Of a stretch of 37,646 bases of DNA, positions 18,327 through 30,874 are shown piece after piece; position 1 is the first letter of the stretch; each line of letters starts with the position of its first letter. The stretch covers positions 1 to 37,646 of IMG/VR virus record IMGVR_UViG_3300034071_002022, one strand, 5' to 3'. This stretch comes from a virus. A program made the translations under genes and the position numbers. A model generated the notes under the pieces. That model was not told where the DNA came from and did not search any database. It saw only the letters and a list, made by a program, of their open reading frames with translations.

Positions 18327-21302
18327 TTATCCTTGGGTTAGACTTGGTAGATTGCTCATCATAGTATTATTTACACCAGGAAATGCTAGAACACCTCCAC
18401 CTCTACCTGTAGAGACTGGAGTGACCTTTTCTATTATTATAGGTTGAATAGCAATCATCATTTCCCCATCAGAATATGAGGGATATCTTGAGAGTGATGT
18501 TGTTCTGTTTTTTGGAGACTGTTTTGGAATAAGTCCACCACCCTGATATGCTACATGAACATGGTCACTATGACCAGATGGGTCATTTCCGGCGTGAAAA
18601 AGTTCAACAGGTTTAACACCCTTTATCTTATTAAATTCTGCAACTGCCTTCAATATTGGACCTTGTTCATTTGCATACCCACCAAGATCAATGGCTCTTC
18701 CTTGATAATGTAAAGATCCTGGACTATGACCTGAAGTTAAACTATATGGAGGATGTTCTGGATGCCTATGAATACTACCAGGAACAACTCCTTTTTTCTT
18801 CATAAACCTTCCAAGTTCACCTGCAATTTTCCCACCTGCAGATCCATATCCTTTTCCTAAATCAGTGGGAGTAGATTCATCAACTTTACCTTTAACAACT
18901 TCTTTATTAATATCTGCAGGCATTAATTTGCCTTTTTTAAATCTACCAATATTTGCTCCCCTTGGTTCAAATCCAAAAGTATGTCCATAACGACTCACTT
19001 CTGTAGAATTATCCAAGTCATCATATTTTTTTTCAAAAGAGTCTGATCTAAAATTATCTCTCGGTCCAACAAAAGTTCTTGCTTTTTCTTGTTTACTTCT
19101 ATCCAATAAAGCAGCAGCAATTTTTTCAACAATATTTCCAGTATATCCTTTATATTTTTTAGCAAATGCAATAGCAGTTTCTTTTGAATTTATTTTACTC
19201 CATTCATTAACTCCACCATAGTCACTAACTGGTTGAAACTGTCCAGGTTGTAAAATCACACCTTTGATACTTTTTGGCCATCCAGGTAAAGAAACTCTAT
19301 TATAAATTGCCTGAGCAGCATCAGCAGCACCTTGATATCCGTCAGTAGGTATTCCATTTTCAAAAAGTGCTGCAGTAACAAGTAACCAAAAATCAGGACT
19401 TGTTGAAGTAACTTTTAAACTTCCCGAAGATCCTGGACTTGTATCAAGTTTTTCACCTTCTTCCCCTTTTGAAGTATCTTTCTTATATTCAGTATACTTG
19501 CCGGGCATCATTTGTTTTTGAACTTCACGAATAGCTTCATCTACCTTTTTTTGAATCAAATTTCCTAGTATTTTATCAAATCCTTTGTTTAGTTCTAAAT
19601 CATCGCGCTTTGTTAAACCCCTAAGTTTTGGAACTGGTCCACCAGATTGCATTTTAGAAATTTCTTTCTCTATACTAGATACGCTAGAAGATATTTGCTG
19701 ATTTGCAATCACACTAATTAAGTAGGAAATTCCATTACTCAAATTACTAATTGCATTTTGAGGGAGTTTTTCGCCTAAAGCAATATCAATAGCGCCACCC
19801 ATTAGTGCTCCAATACCAAAAGGAATATCTTTTAGTTTCTTTGCAACTCCAGTGAGTGCTTTATATGGATTTGGGAGTCTTTTAAGTTTTGCATCCCTCT
19901 CTAGTATCTTTTTATTTCTTTCATCAATTTCATCTTGAGTTGCATTTTCTTTAAGTGGTGGAATAGTTGGTAGTAAATCAAACCAAGGACTCTTTTGTTG
20001 TCCTTCAATTTCTGTTCTAGCAGAAGGATCTGGATAAAGTTTTTGAATATTCTTTTTACCACCAACGTCTTTACCGGGTTGGGATTGTTTCGGTTTTATT
20101 TTTTGCGGTCTTCTCTTTGTAATTTTAAGAGATCTTGTTGGACCTCCTAGAGGTTTTCCACCTCTTGTTACTGACCCTCCACCTTGTTTCTTTTGAACTT
20201 TTCCTTGAGGTTTCTTATTTTCAAAAAGAACTTCATATAATTTCCCAGCAAGTTCAGCACCAGCAACACCACCAATAAAAGTTCCAAATCCAGGAAGAAT
20301 TAAAGAACCAACAGCACCAAGAAGTAAAGTTCCAACTCCCCTAAATGCTGCTTTACCTACAGGATCTCCAAGAGCCCAAGAAAGACCAAATTCAATAAGT
20401 CCACCAAGAACTGGAAGTCTTGATAATGGACCTTTTACAAGTCTTAATAATTGACGTGTTGCTTGTTTACCTATAACTGCTTGCGTTGCTTTTCTTGTAC
20501 TAATTCTTGCTGCTTGAGCAGTTTTTTGTATGATACCTTTTTTTACTGCTCTCTTTGCTACTTCTCCTGTTGTTTTTTTCGCTGCCTCTTTTGCTGCATT
20601 CTTAGTTGATATTCCCGCTGCCTTATTAAAAGAATTGATAGCACCTGTGAGTGCAATTCCACCAATCAAGACATAATTAATATACTCGTTTAACTTACCA
20701 GATAACTTATCAAAGTCTTGCTGTGCTTTTTCTCCACCAATACTCTTTGCAAGATCTCTAACTTTATCATATGCTTGATAACCACGATCAATAAAATTAA
20801 CTAAACCACTCAACAATGATTTGAATATATTCTCAGCAACACCATAAACTTGTCCTATGGTTTTAACAATACCCTCTAATTTTGGAAGTTGATCTTGGAA
20901 CCTAGTAAATAACCAACCAAGAGCGGTAAAGAATAAAAATCTTTTAATGCGATCTAGAAAACTTGCGCCAGGAAGTGAAAGAGTTGGTAAATTAAATTTC
21001 TTTGCTTCTTTTGGTGCTTCTAGTTTTTTTTCTTCTCTCTCATAATCTGCTTTTTCTTTTTCCTTTTTCTTTTTACTTTGTTCATTTTGGTCTTCTTTTA
21101 GAATTAATTTTAAAGAAGAGTCGATGTTAACTAAAGTTTTTTGAATACTTTTTGGATCTTCTTCTTTAACAGGACCCATTAGTTTTTGAATATCGATTGC
21201 TTTTTTCTCAATCGAAACTGCAGGAACTATCTTAGCTGCTTTTATTTTTAGAAGTGGAGATCCTTTTGCGGATGGTAAAAGTTTTTGAGTATTAATTGCC
21301 AT
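18327..21302 (-). CDS. Tape-measure-like tail/hub protein with SleB-type and M15-type wall hydrolase domains, 991 aa
   Basis: The N-terminus is charged and coiled-coil-like (about 70-100, Lys/Glu-rich), then hydrophobic (SFLDRIKRFLFFTALGWLFT, 114-133) with further membrane-type stretches near 208-222 and 322-350. Two enzyme domains follow. At about 635-780 is a SleB/CwlJ-like lytic domain (AAQAIYNRV 662-670, GVILQPGQF 681-689, RYGHTFGF 771-778). At about 825-920 is an M15/D,D-carboxypeptidase-like domain with H865xxGRAxD872 and HVH (914-916) as metal ligands. The product is probably a tail-lumen or hub protein that opens peptidoglycan at injection, compensating for the missing lysozyme in gp5. 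Its N-terminal module parallels the preceding 764-aa protein. It starts by a TAATG overlap with that gene. Confidence 0.78.
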   Translation of the reverse strand: MAINTQKLLPSAKGSPLLKIKAAKIVPAVSIEKKAIDIQKLMGPVKEEDPKSIQKTLVNIDSSLKLILKEDQNEQSKKKKEKEKADYEREEKKLEAPKEAKKFNLPTLSLPGASFLDRIKRFLFFTALGWLFTRFQDQLPKLEGIVKTIGQVYGVAENIFKSLLSGLVNFIDRGYQAYDKVRDLAKSIGGEKAQQDFDKLSGKLNEYINYVLIGGIALTGAINSFNKAAGISTKNAAKEAAKKTTGEVAKRAVKKGIIQKTAQAARISTRKATQAVIGKQATRQLLRLVKGPLSRLPVLGGLIEFGLSWALGDPVGKAAFRGVGTLLLGAVGSLILPGFGTFIGGVAGAELAGKLYEVLFENKKPQGKVQKKQGGGSVTRGGKPLGGPTRSLKITKRRPQKIKPKQSQPGKDVGGKKNIQKLYPDPSARTEIEGQQKSPWFDLLPTIPPLKENATQDEIDERNKKILERDAKLKRLPNPYKALTGVAKKLKDIPFGIGALMGGAIDIALGEKLPQNAISNLSNGISYLISVIANQQISSSVSSIEKEISKMQSGGPVPKLRGLTKRDDLELNKGFDKILGNLIQKKVDEAIREVQKQMMPGKYTEYKKDTSKGEEGEKLDTSPGSSGSLKVTSTSPDFWLLVTAALFENGIPTDGYQGAADAAQAIYNRVSLPGWPKSIKGVILQPGQFQPVSDYGGVNEWSKINSKETAIAFAKKYKGYTGNIVEKIAAALLDRSKQEKARTFVGPRDNFRSDSFEKKYDDLDNSTEVSRYGHTFGFEPRGANIGRFKKGKLMPADINKEVVKGKVDESTPTDLGKGYGSAGGKIAGELGRFMKKKGVVPGSIHRHPEHPPYSLTSGHSPGSLHYQGRAIDLGGYANEQGPILKAVAEFNKIKGVKPVELFHAGNDPSGHSDHVHVAYQGGGLIPKQSPKNRTTSLSRYPSYSDGEMMIAIQPIIIEKVTPVSTGRGGGVLAFPGVNNTMMSNLPSLTQG

Positions 21303-23596
21303 TATCCTAAACTACCTATTCCATAAAGATTAGCATTTGTAATCCTAGTTTCAACACCACTTTGAGGAACCACCGAGAATGAAGAAACTTTAGAACCAGC
21401 AGCAGATCCTCCACCAGCAGCAGCAGATGCAGATTGGACGATGGGTGGAAGAGTCATCATACCTTGCATATTTCCTCTGGAGAGAGGTGTAATTTGAGGT
21501 TTATTTACTGATTTTTTAAACGGAGTAGAGTTACTATCCGTCATTGCAACCAATTTATCAATTAAAGAAGTTCCAAGACGATTTACTGTATCGACAGGAA
21601 GAACATATTCTCCGGGTTGCAATGCAGCAAGTTGTCTGTCTGCTGTTGCTCCGCGAATATTCATTCCAGTATTTTCTTTAATTAGACCTCCACCCATTCT
21701 TTGAGGTATCATATTTCCTCTATAGTCAGTTGCTCCACTCCCTTTAAAATTTCTCCAAACTCCACCAGGACCGAAATGTTTTAATAAGAATGCTTCACTT
21801 CCAATTGCTTCTAATACCTCAGCACTCGCTCCAGACCTTTGACCTTGCTTATAAGTTCTTTCTAAACTTTCTACTTCTCCACCACCCTGAAGCATTAAAG
21901 GTTTATTAACTCCAGGTTTTTCATATTGATAAGGAGCATATTTAATCTTTGGATTTTTTGAATTTGGTTTTACTGGGAGTCGATCTTCTCTAAAACCTTT
22001 TAGTTCTCCCCATCCCTTCAAATCAAATCCAGGCATTCTATATTTTTCAATCGGTGTTCTGAGTGGTAATCTATCAAGATATTTTCTTCTGTCTGCAAAA
22101 GGATTTAATCTATCCCACCAAGGTCTAACATTAGTATTAATATTAGTGTTTCCTTGTGCTTGTCTATTTAATAATCTCTCTTGAGCATCTTGCATAGAAA
22201 CTTTTAAAGGTGTTCTACCAGTATTAAGTGCATCCCAAGCAGCGCGAGAAGATGACCTTTTTGAATTTTCCGCAATACCACCACCTTGTAGTTTAATTAC
22301 TCCACCCTCTTGAAGTCTAGGTAGGGGCATTCGAGGCATTGCAAAATTTCCTCCAACCATTCCACCAGAATTATATAATGTTCCCATTTTAGGTTTATTT
22401 GCACCAGGACCACCATATTGTCTATTCAATCCAAGAAAAGTTTCTGCACCAACAGCATCAACTGTCTTTTTATTCATAACAATTTCTCCAGGTTGAGCAA
22501 CGATCATTTGAGTATCTGGACCAAACCCAGATACCTTTTCTCCTGTGTTGGTGTCTATCCCATCATATCCACCCATCACAGTTCCACCGCGAGCAGCACC
22601 TTGCAATAATCCATAAGGTGTTGTTGGGCCCATATCACCAACGCCACCAACACCCTGAACTCCTAATCCCTTTCCAGTCTGTGCTCTTGCTTTGTTTGCT
22701 GCTTGAACGGGTGCTGCTTGTCTTTGTCCAGTAACTTCATTTGCTACTGCTGCTAGACCAACAGCAGCTGCTGGAACAGCAAACCAAGGATTTAATGCTA
22801 AACCTTTAACTGCCCTTGCAATTCCTGGTATTAACTTAACTAGTTTTCCAGTAAAAAATCCTACTATCTTTAAAGTATTTCTAACAAACTTTCCAAAAGG
22901 AGTGAAGAATAAAACCGCAGCACCTAGTAAAGCAGGCCACCAGTCTTTTAAAAATCTACTAATAACTTCTATCTTTCTTTTATTTGCAGGATCACCCAAC
23001 CAATCCATTAACTGAGTAAATGCCCTACCAAGTAATGTGAAGAATATAAATCTCCAGATACGATCTATGATACTTTGAAAAGGTGCAAGAAGTTTTTTTG
23101 CTGCACCCGATACTGCTGATATTCCTCTTTTAAATCCTTCTAAACCTTCTTCTCTCTTAGTTCTTTTTTGCGACTCTTTATCTCTTCTTTCTTCCTCACT
23201 TTTTTTCTTTCTGAATTTTAGAATCATTGCTAAGGTATTAGCAATAGATTCTAGTGGTTTTCCAATAGAAAGTGTTCCTTGCTGAAGTTGAGAATCTTGT
23301 TTAGAAATTTTAGCAGGAAGTGCTAAAGTTTTTTTAGAAGGTCTTAATAATTTTGTTGTTGCAACTTTATCTGCAGTTATCTTTTCTTTCTTTGGACTAA
23401 ACCTACCCTTCTTTCCTCTTACTCTTTTTCTTTCATTAGCAAGAATAGCAAGTTCTTCTTGGGGTAATTTTTTTGAACCAGTAACAATCGCTTCCTTAAG
23501 TAGAGTCAGATAAGTATCATAATCAAGGTCGAAAACATCCTCAAGACCCAGTAATCTTAGAATTCTTTCATCGATTTGTTCTGATACTGGGTTCAT
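21302..23596 (-). CDS. Tape-measure-like tail protein, 764 aa
   Basis: It is the first long gene after the gp26-like/frameshift pair, the usual place of the tape measure. The N-terminal 160 residues are charged and helical (EERKRDK-type runs). A hydrophobic block follows (SIIDRIWRFIFFTLLGRAFT at 175-194, PALLGAAVLFFTPFGKFV at 221-238). Two copies of a QPGE motif are seen, AQPGEIVMNKKTVDAVG (367-383) and LQPGEYVLPVDTVNRLG, a repeat typical of phage tape measures and inner-tail proteins. Many Gly-Gly turns separate modules in the second half. The IDRI..F.FFT block recurs in the 991-aa protein, so the two look paralogous. T4 gp29 is the functional analogue. Which of the two sets tail length is not decidable here. 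Confidence 0.7.
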   Translation of the reverse strand: MNPVSEQIDERILRLLGLEDVFDLDYDTYLTLLKEAIVTGSKKLPQEELAILANERKRVRGKKGRFSPKKEKITADKVATTKLLRPSKKTLALPAKISKQDSQLQQGTLSIGKPLESIANTLAMILKFRKKKSEEERRDKESQKRTKREEGLEGFKRGISAVSGAAKKLLAPFQSIIDRIWRFIFFTLLGRAFTQLMDWLGDPANKRKIEVISRFLKDWWPALLGAAVLFFTPFGKFVRNTLKIVGFFTGKLVKLIPGIARAVKGLALNPWFAVPAAAVGLAAVANEVTGQRQAAPVQAANKARAQTGKGLGVQGVGGVGDMGPTTPYGLLQGAARGGTVMGGYDGIDTNTGEKVSGFGPDTQMIVAQPGEIVMNKKTVDAVGAETFLGLNRQYGGPGANKPKMGTLYNSGGMVGGNFAMPRMPLPRLQEGGVIKLQGGGIAENSKRSSSRAAWDALNTGRTPLKVSMQDAQERLLNRQAQGNTNINTNVRPWWDRLNPFADRRKYLDRLPLRTPIEKYRMPGFDLKGWGELKGFREDRLPVKPNSKNPKIKYAPYQYEKPGVNKPLMLQGGGEVESLERTYKQGQRSGASAEVLEAIGSEAFLLKHFGPGGVWRNFKGSGATDYRGNMIPQRMGGGLIKENTGMNIRGATADRQLAALQPGEYVLPVDTVNRLGTSLIDKLVAMTDSNSTPFKKSVNKPQITPLSRGNMQGMMTLPPIVQSASAAAGGGSAAGSKVSSFSVVPQSGVETRITNANLYGIGSLG

Positions 23597-23597
23597 T

Positions 23598-23777
23598 TTA
23601 TCGCTGTTGTTGCTGTTGTAGTTTTAGTTCTTCTTCTTCCAGATGTTGTTTCAATAAGATTACATAAATGTCCCTCTCCCAAGGCATCATATTTTCAATC
23701 TCTGTTAATGAATATTTATGATACTGCATCAAAGCAAAATTTAACCTGAAGTAATTCTCCAGGTCCATATGACTCAT
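23598..23777 (-). CDS. 59-codon ORF, probable -1 frameshift extension of the gp26-like chaperone
   Basis: The frame reads MSHMDLENYFRLNFALMQYH and ends in a Gln-rich tail before TAA, 1 base before the tape-measure-like start. The MMPWERDIYVILLKQHLEEE stretch is typical of short C-terminal (T) parts of tail-assembly chaperones. Its frame is exactly -1 relative to the upstream gp26-like gene, and a TTTTTTC heptamer lies 8 bases before its ATG; a -1 slip gives a fusion with R-I-G as linker. Independent initiation is also possible: AGGGA lies 8 bases before a second ATG at 23768. I favour the fusion because of the gene order chaperone, slip site, tape measure. Both products might be made. Confidence 0.72.
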   Translation of the reverse strand: MSHMDLENYFRLNFALMQYHKYSLTEIENMMPWERDIYVILLKQHLEEEELKLQQQQQR

Positions 23778-23779
23778 CC

Positions 23780-24499
23780 CTATGCGAAAAAAGATGATAA
23801 CCCTTCTAGAACAACTTCACTTTCAACTTCAGTATTTGGATTCTTAACTTTGATTTTATGAGAGAGTCTAGGCATCGTTTCAAAGAACTTTTCAATTTCT
23901 TTAAATTGAGTAGAGTTCATTTGATCAAGAAACTCCATCAGTTCTTTTTTAGTTACATCAGCAGTGGACCAAACCTCTTCTTCTGTATAAATCTTATCAA
24001 TACAAGAAGAGATCAACTCGAATGATTGATCCATTGTATTATCCGCAGTAAAATCAAAGTTACTCTTAATAAACTGATCAAGTGATGGATATTTCATTTC
24101 CATCATAATCGAATCATCAACTTTGATTTGTTTGATATGATCGGGATTTTTTTGAACTTGAATATCATCTACATTAATTTTCACAGGAACTGTGGTTTCT
24201 CCATCGTCTGGGCAAATGATATTGACTTCAATTTCTTCCCCTACAGACTTTCCACGAATGTTTAGGAAGAGATATTCAATATCAAACGTTGGAAGTGATT
24301 CTACTTTAATTCCTTTTGTTTCAATGCAATTTTTAATTACAGTCTTAATAGCATTTGTAATTTGTTTTGTATCTTCTGATTCCAATGCAAGAACTAAGAG
24401 TTTTTCTTCTCTTACAAGAAAAGGTCTATATTTAATCTCTTGTCCAGTCGAAGGCAATTCAAGAGTATACGATGGTGTAGAAATCTTAGGTAAAGGCAT
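23780..24499 (-). CDS. gp26: gp26-like baseplate hub / tail-assembly chaperone, 239 aa
   Basis: The protein starts MPLPKISTPSYTLELPSTGQ; the segments IKYRPFLVREEKLLVLALES and DIEYLFLNIRGKSVGEEIEV follow the T4 gp26-type baseplate protein family (T4 gp26 is 208 aa, required for hub assembly). It is preceded by a GATAAATA late promoter and AGGAC before the ATG. It ends ...LSSFFA at a U UUU UUC slippery site two codons before the TAG, from which a -1 shift would add 62 residues. Position just upstream of the tape-measure-like genes matches lambda G and similar chaperones. The short form would be abundant and the extended form rare. The N-terminal half is beta-rich, the last third helical (EFLDQMNSTQFKEIEKFF). 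Confidence 0.78.
   Translation of the reverse strand: MPLPKISTPSYTLELPSTGQEIKYRPFLVREEKLLVLALESEDTKQITNAIKTVIKNCIETKGIKVESLPTFDIEYLFLNIRGKSVGEEIEVNIICPDDGETTVPVKINVDDIQVQKNPDHIKQIKVDDSIMMEMKYPSLDQFIKSNFDFTADNTMDQSFELISSCIDKIYTEEEVWSTADVTKKELMEFLDQMNSTQFKEIEKFFETMPRLSHKIKVKNPNTEVESEVVLEGLSSFFA
23786..23792 (-). other. Candidate -1 ribosomal frameshift site T TTT TTC
   Basis: On the minus strand TTTTTTC (23792 to 23786) lies in the phase X XXY YYZ relative to the gp26-like frame (TCT TTT TTC GCA TAG). The zero-frame stop follows two codons later. After a -1 slip, reading continues CGC ATA GGG ATG AGT in the frame of the 59-codon ORF. A perfect 8-bp hairpin (acctggag, loop aatta, cttcaggt; 23764-23744) begins 21 nt downstream, further than the usual 5-9 nt, so a stimulator is uncertain. 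Confidence 0.7.
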
Positions 24500-24564: not shown

Positions 24565-25593
24565 CTATACAACAATATTGCCACCTCCAGGATTAACTTC
24601 ACCCGGATTTGTTCCTATACGTCTTGTTCTTAAGGCAACAACAGGTTCTGCTGGAAATCCAGGAGGACTTCCGGGAACAGGTCCTGGTGGAATGACATCA
24701 CCCTCAGGTGTTGTTATAGGAGGAATTCCTGGTGCTGTTGGTTGATTTGGTTCTTGAGGTAATTCGTTATTAGATCTCTTTGTCAGGTATCGAGTATAAG
24801 TAAAAGAAACAGTTACCTTGAGAAGTTGAGAAGAATCATAAGATACTGGGATGGAATTCAAACTAATTGGATATGCTTGCATAAATTTATATTGCAAATA
24901 TTGTCCTTTAAAATCTCTTTCAAATTTATTGATGAACAAATTGTCAGTTTGATATTGCTCAGGAAATCTAATTCTATAATAAAATTGACGAGTGTCTAAA
25001 CCTAATGCATCTTGTTCATTTGCAATATACTGCATCCATTTCTCAAAGAACCATAAAACATTATAATTACCATCAGATCTTCCATGATCTACATAAAAAG
25101 TGAAATCAACACGATCATCATATGCTCTACGATATGCGTGTCTCTCAGTAATACCAGTATAATCATCCGTGATCTCATTCGTCATAAATGATGACCCAGG
25201 AAGAGATGCTTCAGAGCAAGATAACGATATTAGTTCTTTATTAATTGTAAAGTTCAATCCTTTTTCAGTTAACCAAGAAATTACTGGTGCAGGAGGATTG
25301 AACCAGCATTGATAATTTGATGTTAATGCAGGCCGAAGAAGTTTTTCTTTAATTTGAAAATTACTTTTTATAGATGGTGCTATATTGGCACCAAAAGGTT
25401 GTGATGCAGTTCCTCCATTACCAGGACTTGTTCCGCTTCCTGATGTTGTTTGACTTGGAACTTGAGGAACTCCAGGTGCTGTGGTTGGGTTACTTGTTGG
25501 AATAGGATCAAAAGGGACAGCTGGAGTACCCGTATTCTGTCCTGGTCCAGAAAAATCAGGTATCGGTAGTGTTGGATTGGGACTTTCCGCCAT
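24565..25593 (-). CDS. gp54: gp54-like baseplate tail-tube initiator, 342 aa
   Basis: The core (about 75-290) shows the tail-tube-like pattern of T4 gp54: CSEASLPGSSF, RVDFTFYVDHG, LWFFEKWMQYIANEQ, KFMQAYPISLNSIPVSYDSS, LKVTVSFTYTRYL. In T4, gp54 caps the baseplate with gp48 and primes tube assembly; gp48 is encoded 1 kb away on the other strand. Unlike T4 gp54 (320 aa), it has Pro/Gly/Thr-rich extensions at both ends (1-70 and about 295-342, e.g. VIPPGPVPGSPPGFP). Its ATG is 2 bases from the plus-strand late promoter, so the two promoters overlap. A generic tube-fold paralogue is the alternative. Confidence 0.7.
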   Translation of the reverse strand: MAESPNPTLPIPDFSGPGQNTGTPAVPFDPIPTSNPTTAPGVPQVPSQTTSGSGTSPGNGGTASQPFGANIAPSIKSNFQIKEKLLRPALTSNYQCWFNPPAPVISWLTEKGLNFTINKELISLSCSEASLPGSSFMTNEITDDYTGITERHAYRRAYDDRVDFTFYVDHGRSDGNYNVLWFFEKWMQYIANEQDALGLDTRQFYYRIRFPEQYQTDNLFINKFERDFKGQYLQYKFMQAYPISLNSIPVSYDSSQLLKVTVSFTYTRYLTKRSNNELPQEPNQPTAPGIPPITTPEGDVIPPGPVPGSPPGFPAEPVVALRTRRIGTNPGEVNPGGGNIVV

Positions 25594-29936: not shown

Positions 29937-30281
29937 CTACAGGTCGGAACCTGTTTTGTCAATCTGCTTCTTCATCACTTCAAGCATCTTGGACATATTA
30001 CCAAAGATTACATTCATATCAACATTGGAAGGAAGACCCATCATCGTAGCAGATTCAGCAATACGTTGCTTCATTTCCTTTGCTTCGGGGTCATCGGAAA
30101 GACTCAAACGTGTATAGAGAATCTGTTGTTTATTCAAAAGTTTTTCAAGAAGATCAACATGGTTAATCTTATCGTCTTTGGTCATTGATGGAAACTTAAA
30201 AATGCTTCCATAAATTTCTTCTTGCAGTTCAGAAATTTCAGTCATCTCTGCACGAACGACTTCAGAATCAAAGAAACTCAT
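29937..30281 (-). CDS. DUF1825-like protein, 114 aa
   Basis: The start MSFFDSEVVRAEMTEISELQ and C-terminal VIFGNMSKMLEVMKKQID resemble the cyanobacterial DUF1825 family (about 110 aa, mainly helical, function unknown). It overlaps gp59 by ATGA, with AGGAG well placed before its ATG, so it is translated in the replication operon between gp59 and gp32. It looks all-helical and has no Cys. In T4 gp59 and gp32 are direct neighbours, so this gene is an insertion specific to cyanophages. A role with gp32 or in replication is inferred from position only. Confidence 0.75.
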   Translation of the reverse strand: MSFFDSEVVRAEMTEISELQEEIYGSIFKFPSMTKDDKINHVDLLEKLLNKQQILYTRLSLSDDPEAKEMKQRIAESATMMGLPSNVDMNVIFGNMSKMLEVMKKQIDKTGSDL

Positions 30282-30874
30282 TTTTCTCCTAGAATTACTT
30301 CTTTTAAAATTCGTTTATAACGAAATACATCAATATTTAGAAATGGATTATATTTTTTAATCCGACGACTGACGGTTTGCCACACCGGGTCTTGAAGTTT
30401 TTTATCAAAGTTCTTTGAGTATGCAAAGATTTTATCAAAAAGAACCATTGTTTCTAATGATACTTTACCACTCAAATATTTTTTCAAAAGAACAGGATGT
30501 CCTTTTGAACACTTAAAGACATCCTCAAATTTATTTTCTTCAAACAAAGATTGACTTTCTTCTTTAAAGACGTAGGAAAGTGATTGTACCTTTTTCTGCC
30601 AGTTTTGATACCTTGTTTCCCCCTCTTTGATCATTTCACCAATCCAAAGAGACTCTGGATCATTGCAAGATACAAAGTTAGCAACAAAAAAATCTACAAC
30701 TTCTTGATCTGTTTTTTGTCTTGAGATCTTTTCGAACCACATTCTGTCTTTCCGTTTGTAGAAAGACTGAATGGTTGCTCTTGATTTCCCACAATACTTA
30801 AAGTAATCATAACTGTCTTTTGTAAAATGATTTTTCAAAGACAGATAACATTTATATGAATCAAATGGCATCAT
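30278..30874 (-). CDS. gp59: gp59 helicase-loading protein, 198 aa
   Basis: Length and pattern match T4 gp59 (217 aa), which loads gp41 helicase onto gp32-coated forked DNA: YKCYLSLKNHFTKDSYDYFK at the N-terminus, AT.QSFYKRKDRMWFEKIS, a two-domain helical layout, VSCNDPESLWIGEM (compare ANQDAWIGD in T4), and RRIKKYNPFLNIDV near the end. The neighbours are gp33 upstream and, after one gene, gp32, as in T4 (33-59-32). It starts by TAATG with gp33; the second ATG at 30871 is possible. It is basic overall, in keeping with fork binding. Confidence 0.88.
   Translation of the reverse strand: MMPFDSYKCYLSLKNHFTKDSYDYFKYCGKSRATIQSFYKRKDRMWFEKISRQKTDQEVVDFFVANFVSCNDPESLWIGEMIKEGETRYQNWQKKVQSLSYVFKEESQSLFEENKFEDVFKCSKGHPVLLKKYLSGKVSLETMVLFDKIFAYSKNFDKKLQDPVWQTVSRRIKKYNPFLNIDVFRYKRILKEVILGEK

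Follow-up and report, generated by a model that had tools for sequence, protein, structure and literature searches.

The window analysed here is the whole of a 37,646-nucleotide stretch of viral DNA, positions 1 to 37,646 of the IMG/VR virus record IMGVR_UViG_3300034071_002022. On its minus strand, a tail-tube-like gene is followed by gp26, a short gp51-like ORF and an ORF of 764 aa. The tail-tube-like gene (24565-25593) is clearly identified by its matches to PF23849 Phage_TTP_2 (E=6.6e-13) and the tail tube family phrog_45 (E=6.5e-29). The gp26-like ORF (23780-24499; 239 aa) matches PF12322 T4_baseplate (E=1.1e-78) and the baseplate hub family phrog_150 (E=3.4e-82), and its nearest cultured kin are cyanomyoviruses, for example Synechococcus phage S-SM2 (79% identity in gp26). 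A direct match to a tape-measure profile was not found for the 764-aa ORF (21302-23596), which matches only phrog_35029 (unknown function) and is a candidate tape measure by position only; gp26 is flanked by this long ORF and the tail-tube-like gene. The counterpart of this long ORF in Pelagibacter phage HTVC008M, located two ORFs downstream, is annotated as 'putative tail tape measure'. The next ORF in the window (18327-21302, minus strand; 991 aa) matches PF07486 Cell Wall Hydrolase, several endolysin PHROGs and, weakly, a tape-measure PHROG; it appears to encode another large tail protein, one that carries a hydrolase domain.

The gp26-like frame ends TCT TTT TTC GCA TAG. As the first-pass annotation had stated, this end contains the slippery heptamer T TTT TTC (23792-23786, minus strand) in the exact X XXY YYZ phase for a -1 slip, and the frame-0 stop TAG (23780-23782) is located one codon past it. 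From the slip, the -1 frame reads CGC ATA GGG ATG AGT CAT ATG GAC... and stays open for 62 codons (23786-23601); its stop (23600-23598) lies one base before the ATG (23596) of the 764-aa ORF, again as first described. The length of 59 codons given earlier for this frame holds when counted from the ATG at 23777, and is three codons short of the full open frame. Together with its stop, the -1 frame (23598-23786) encodes a gp51-like domain beginning RIGMSHMDLENYF..., and the predicted long product has 238 + 62 = 300 aa. Among the larger ORFs of the window, an in-phase T TTT TTN exists at only two of 9,951 codon positions, the other being in the middle of the gene at 30278-30874 (minus strand), 139 codons before its end. 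The chance that a given gene has one among its four final codons is about 0.0008, and an open -1 frame of 62 codons arises in shuffles with a probability of about 0.006.

The short ORF, which had been presented as an anonymous reading frame, does exist and corresponds to an annotated gene: it matches phrog_634 (E=5.4e-28), named gp51, 'baseplate hub assembly catalyst'. It also matches positions 240-281 of phrog_150 (E=4.8e-5), and this match to the last 40 positions of the gp26 family indicates that gp26 and gp51 are one protein in some phages. Searches of Pfam and NCBIfam with the 62-aa domain gave nothing credible, and its structure showed no significant relative in BFVD.

For comparison, 183 distinct loci were collected from IMG/VR and cultured phages. 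Heptamer, phase and downstream ORF, whose conservation had been left to be checked, are retained at all of them and in most distant T4-like groups sampled. The in-phase heptamer is T TTT TTC at 174 of the 183 loci and T TTT TTT at nine; the gp26 stop is located one codon past it in 174 and directly after it in nine. In Melnitz and HTVC008M, the heptamer runs straight into the stop (AGT TTT TTT TAA, with eight T). The -1 frame is open at every one of the 177 loci that are readable to the end, with a length of 59-69 codons. Such conservation of heptamer, phase and -1 frame makes chance untenable. Homopolymer runs are error-prone, and a sequencing or assembly error in a gene that is truly one in-frame ORF could produce a picture of this kind; the probability of such an error is negligible, and the explanation is ruled out by the identical frame break in 183 distinct sequences, cultured phage genomes included.

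Codon changes were counted on a FastTree phylogeny of gp26 codons from which the last eight were left out. At the TTT column of the heptamer no synonymous change has occurred, and at the TTC column only three, compared with 9-58 at nine other Phe columns. The codon 5' of the heptamer is AGT, TCT, AAT, GCT, GGT or GAT, with an invariable final T; it has changed 36 times on the tree, never at the third base. The codon 3' of the heptamer has undergone 73 nucleotide-level changes, which amount to 45 amino-acid changes in frame 0 and only eight in frame -1, in which Arg (CGN) is retained. This difference (45 versus 8) supports translation of the -1 frame directly past the slip, upstream of any ATG.

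The same result bears on the alternative considered in the first-pass annotation, namely that gp51 is a separate protein whose translation starts at an ATG of its own (23777 or 23768), through translational coupling or reinitiation past the gp26 stop, the heptamer being incidental. The gene is annotated in databases as its own CDS, and the second in-frame ATG in the window (23766-23768) has AGGG 9 nt upstream and is retained in the HMDL clade, although it is missing from many other lineages. However, the first ATG (23775-23777) is not conserved, being replaced by CTG, TTG, CTC or CTA in many relatives, and 49 of the 177 readable loci have no ATG, GTG or TTG among codons 1-14 of the -1 ORF (118 have an ATG there, and 10 have only GTG or TTG). 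These start-less lineages, the fixed heptamer and the amino-acid constraint on the -1 frame before its first ATG contradict independent initiation as the general mechanism, and we consider this explanation improbable; as the sole mechanism, it is ruled out by the lineages without start codons. In the clade of the window, a minor separate gp51 product could still arise from the plausible internal start at 23768. Truncated versions of gp51 are annotated in S-T4, syn9, S-B64, HTVC008M and Melnitz, and no gp51 is annotated in S-CAM1, as expected if gp51 lacks its own start.

An SD-like element, GAAGGG (23801-23806), is located 8 nt upstream of the heptamer in the window, and nearly all relatives have a Glu-Gly pair (GAR GGN) ending at this distance. 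Its pairing with the anti-SD (-6.4 kcal/mol) is stronger than that of the synonymous null (-5.14 +/- 0.12 kcal/mol; 0 of 200 null recodings as strong), with the reservation that the synonymous and shuffle nulls for this element and for the hairpins treat sequences as independent draws, the tree having been used only for codon changes and helices. GAG is chosen at this Glu column in 59% of cases, compared with 9-32% at other conserved Glu columns. The mere presence of an SD-like tetramer is uninformative (99% observed and 99% in the null), and only the pairing strength and the choice of GAG exceed the null. Upstream SD-like elements are known frameshift stimulators (PMC10885494), and the one found here probably helps the slip.

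Both the SD-like element and the in-phase X XXY YYZ fit ribosomal slippage, although phase alone decides nothing between this and transcriptional slippage on the T run as the source of the long form. A few relatives do have longer runs, with eight T in HTVC008M and Melnitz (AGTTTTTTTTAA), and slippage of the polymerase is conceivable at the gp26 end of these two phages. In the window and most relatives, however, the run is of six T, which is short for polymerase slippage, and transcriptional slippage is thus a very improbable source of the long form.

Downstream of the heptamer, the region from 5 to 50 nt is more stable than its synonymous shuffles (mean z -1.98 +/- 0.18, 60 sequences). A perfect 8-bp hairpin had been described 21 nt downstream; the position is right, and the stem consists of seven Watson-Crick pairs and one G.U, or nine pairs when a flanking G.U is added, and is therefore not quite perfect. 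This structure (hairpin B; 23743-23765) starts 20 nt past the heptamer, further away than the usual 5-9 nt, as had been remarked. When compensatory branch changes were counted for every 5-bp helix within the 63 nt that follow the heptamer (mean over helices 1.4, sd 1.8), the diagonal of hairpin B had the most, with up to 16, and a second hairpin of 5 bp, starting 10 nt past the heptamer and thus also outside the usual range, had 11. The second hairpin is limited to the V/I-HMDL clade, in which 97% of cells are paired, G-C/A-T and C-G/T-A exchanges are seen and none of 1000 shuffles reaches the observed value. Hairpin B is limited to the S-HMDL clade, which includes the window (84.5% paired; 0 of 1000 shuffles; above the synonymous null). 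RNAalifold applied to the two main groups gave essentially no structure common to them, and a single family-wide downstream stimulator is ruled out by this clade specificity.

The two hairpins overlap, and so are mutually exclusive, and both adjoin or cover the second AUG. These covarying, lineage-specific hairpins may either promote the slip or suppress separate initiation. We tentatively suggest, at somewhat less than even odds, that they are RNA elements under selection, which arose two or more times in the family (the 5-bp form at 10 nt in V/I-HMDL and the nine-pair form at 20 nt in S-HMDL), and that these mutually exclusive elements adjust the frameshift ratio or prevent separate initiation by burying the AUG, and thereby set the ratio of short to long chaperone in each lineage.

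At this locus, then, the X XXY YYZ is conserved in phase, and the -1 frame is open past the stop and selected as protein, which are features of a programmed -1 frameshift. The sequence comparison supports the lambda-type G/GT reading proposed at first, through the conserved heptamer and phase, the open -1 frame and the selection for -1 reading across the junction; that the slippage is ribosomal, how efficient it is and that the proteins act as chaperones are inferences. In this marine virus of cyanobacteria, a -1 slip of the ribosome near the end of gp26 very probably yields a second, longer tail-building helper protein. With a probability of roughly 0.93, gp26 and the downstream gp51 frame constitute one tail assembly chaperone gene that is read in two ways by -1 frameshifting, and the pair is best read as TAC-N (gp26) and TAC-NC (the gp26-gp51 fusion), equivalent to G/GT of lambda. 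Most ribosomes would stop at the TAG and release the short protein, whereas a fraction would shift back by one base at T TTT TTC to make the 300-aa fusion with a helical gp51 domain. On the model of lambda gpG/gpGT, the short form would serve as a coat on the tape measure protein, and tail tube subunits would be recruited through the fusion.

The chaperone function is backed by gene position, by the two-form logic and by the precedent of lambda. The gene order is that of the lambda locus (tail tube, G, T and tape measure) if the candidate tape measure is counted as such, and in lambda, too, a -1 slip shortly before the short ORF ends appends a C-terminal domain encoded by the ORF that follows. 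Its slippery heptamer is different (G GGA AAG), and no sequence likeness to lambda G/T is expected from the literature. In the AlphaFold2 model of gp26 (mean pLDDT 86.9), the Foldseek PDB matches of highest probability (0.77 and 0.57) were to the HK97 tail assembly chaperone 2ob9, a gp14-type fold; the better of the two (0.77; TM 0.43 by target, 62 columns) is not significant by E-value (1.1). A sequence search of the PDB with gp26 gave no match.

The heptamer, as T TTT TTC, TTT or TTG, is also found in Emdodecavirus phiN3, Ochrobactrum OC, Aeromonas AsFcp_4, Stenotrophomonas Yut2, Vibrio Va3, Agrobacterium OLIVR5 and Rhizobium N34, and most distant T4-like groups sampled thus retain it. Cba120, BX-1, phiA8-29, K452 and YC (mostly Ackermannviridae) are without a canonical T TTT TTY. 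In these five, the -1 frame continues uninterrupted past the stop codon of gp26 and into a gp51-like ORF that has a common ...PW... motif, and all have T TTY near the end of gp26 (e.g., CTT TTT GCG TAA or GCT TTC ATG TAA), which suggests a weaker slip site or stop-start coupling.

In T4-type phages the heptamer is not present, and 26 and 51 are, unlike in the window, separate and divergently transcribed genes. T4 gp26 matches the cyanophage gp26 profile (E 2e-15). T4 gp51 matches phrog_150 over positions 13-280 of 282, as well as phrog_634. An alignment of its residues 209-244 to the cyanophage -1 domain shows 31% identity (E 4e-4). This end-to-end match and the resemblance of the C-terminus to the -1 domain indicate that the fusion is present in T4 as a separate gene. 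T4 gp51 is a gp26-type protein with a C-terminal -1-type domain built in, and in T4 the short and long forms apparently come from two genes. Klebsiella P545, like T4, has a 26-like gene and a separate 26+51-like gene, and cyanophages have the frameshift arrangement. A short and an extended form with a common N-terminal domain, as expected of a tail assembly chaperone pair, are thus found.

The idea of a frameshift in gp26/gp51 of T4-like phages is not new, and the window is a well-supported, unannotated instance of it. Vladimirov, Gautam and Davidson reportedly identified gp26 and gp51 of T4-like phages as tail assembly chaperones in 2022 (Virology 566:9-15), and the abstract is said to state that frameshifting is conserved in several T4-like groups and that T4 uses genes 26 and 51. 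The view of gp26 as a single hub protein, taken over in the first-pass annotation, is thus out of date. In the T4-like chaperones (gp26 as TAC-N, gp51 as TAC-NC or TAC-C), the gene pair, its place before the tail genes and the two-form logic are as found here. A review of 2016 described G-T frameshifting as widespread 'except T4' (PMC5009743). Citing Vladimirov et al. 2022, a passage in PMC10885494 mentions some T4-like phages in which a short gene is accompanied by a longer fusion gene, and one in PMC12846349 mentions that TAC-N genes of T4-like phages carry -1 frameshift signals of the poly-T type. The GTTTTT frameshift of Vandenendeviridae and Andersonviridae likewise has a T-rich site at the end of TAC-N, an always open -1 ORF and the same genomic position, but it concerns other phage families and another slip sequence (PMC12846349). 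We found no description in the literature of the SD-like element and the clade-specific covarying hairpins, which may be new.

In short, gp51 of cyanophages has been annotated erratically, as a separate CDS, as a truncated CDS or not at all, which is explained if it forms the latter half of a frameshifted protein. The family provides a clean comparative case, in which most T4-like groups, with their frameshifted chaperone pair, can be set against T4 with its two separate genes, and the ratio of short to long form is directly testable thanks to the conserved site and the clade-specific hairpins.
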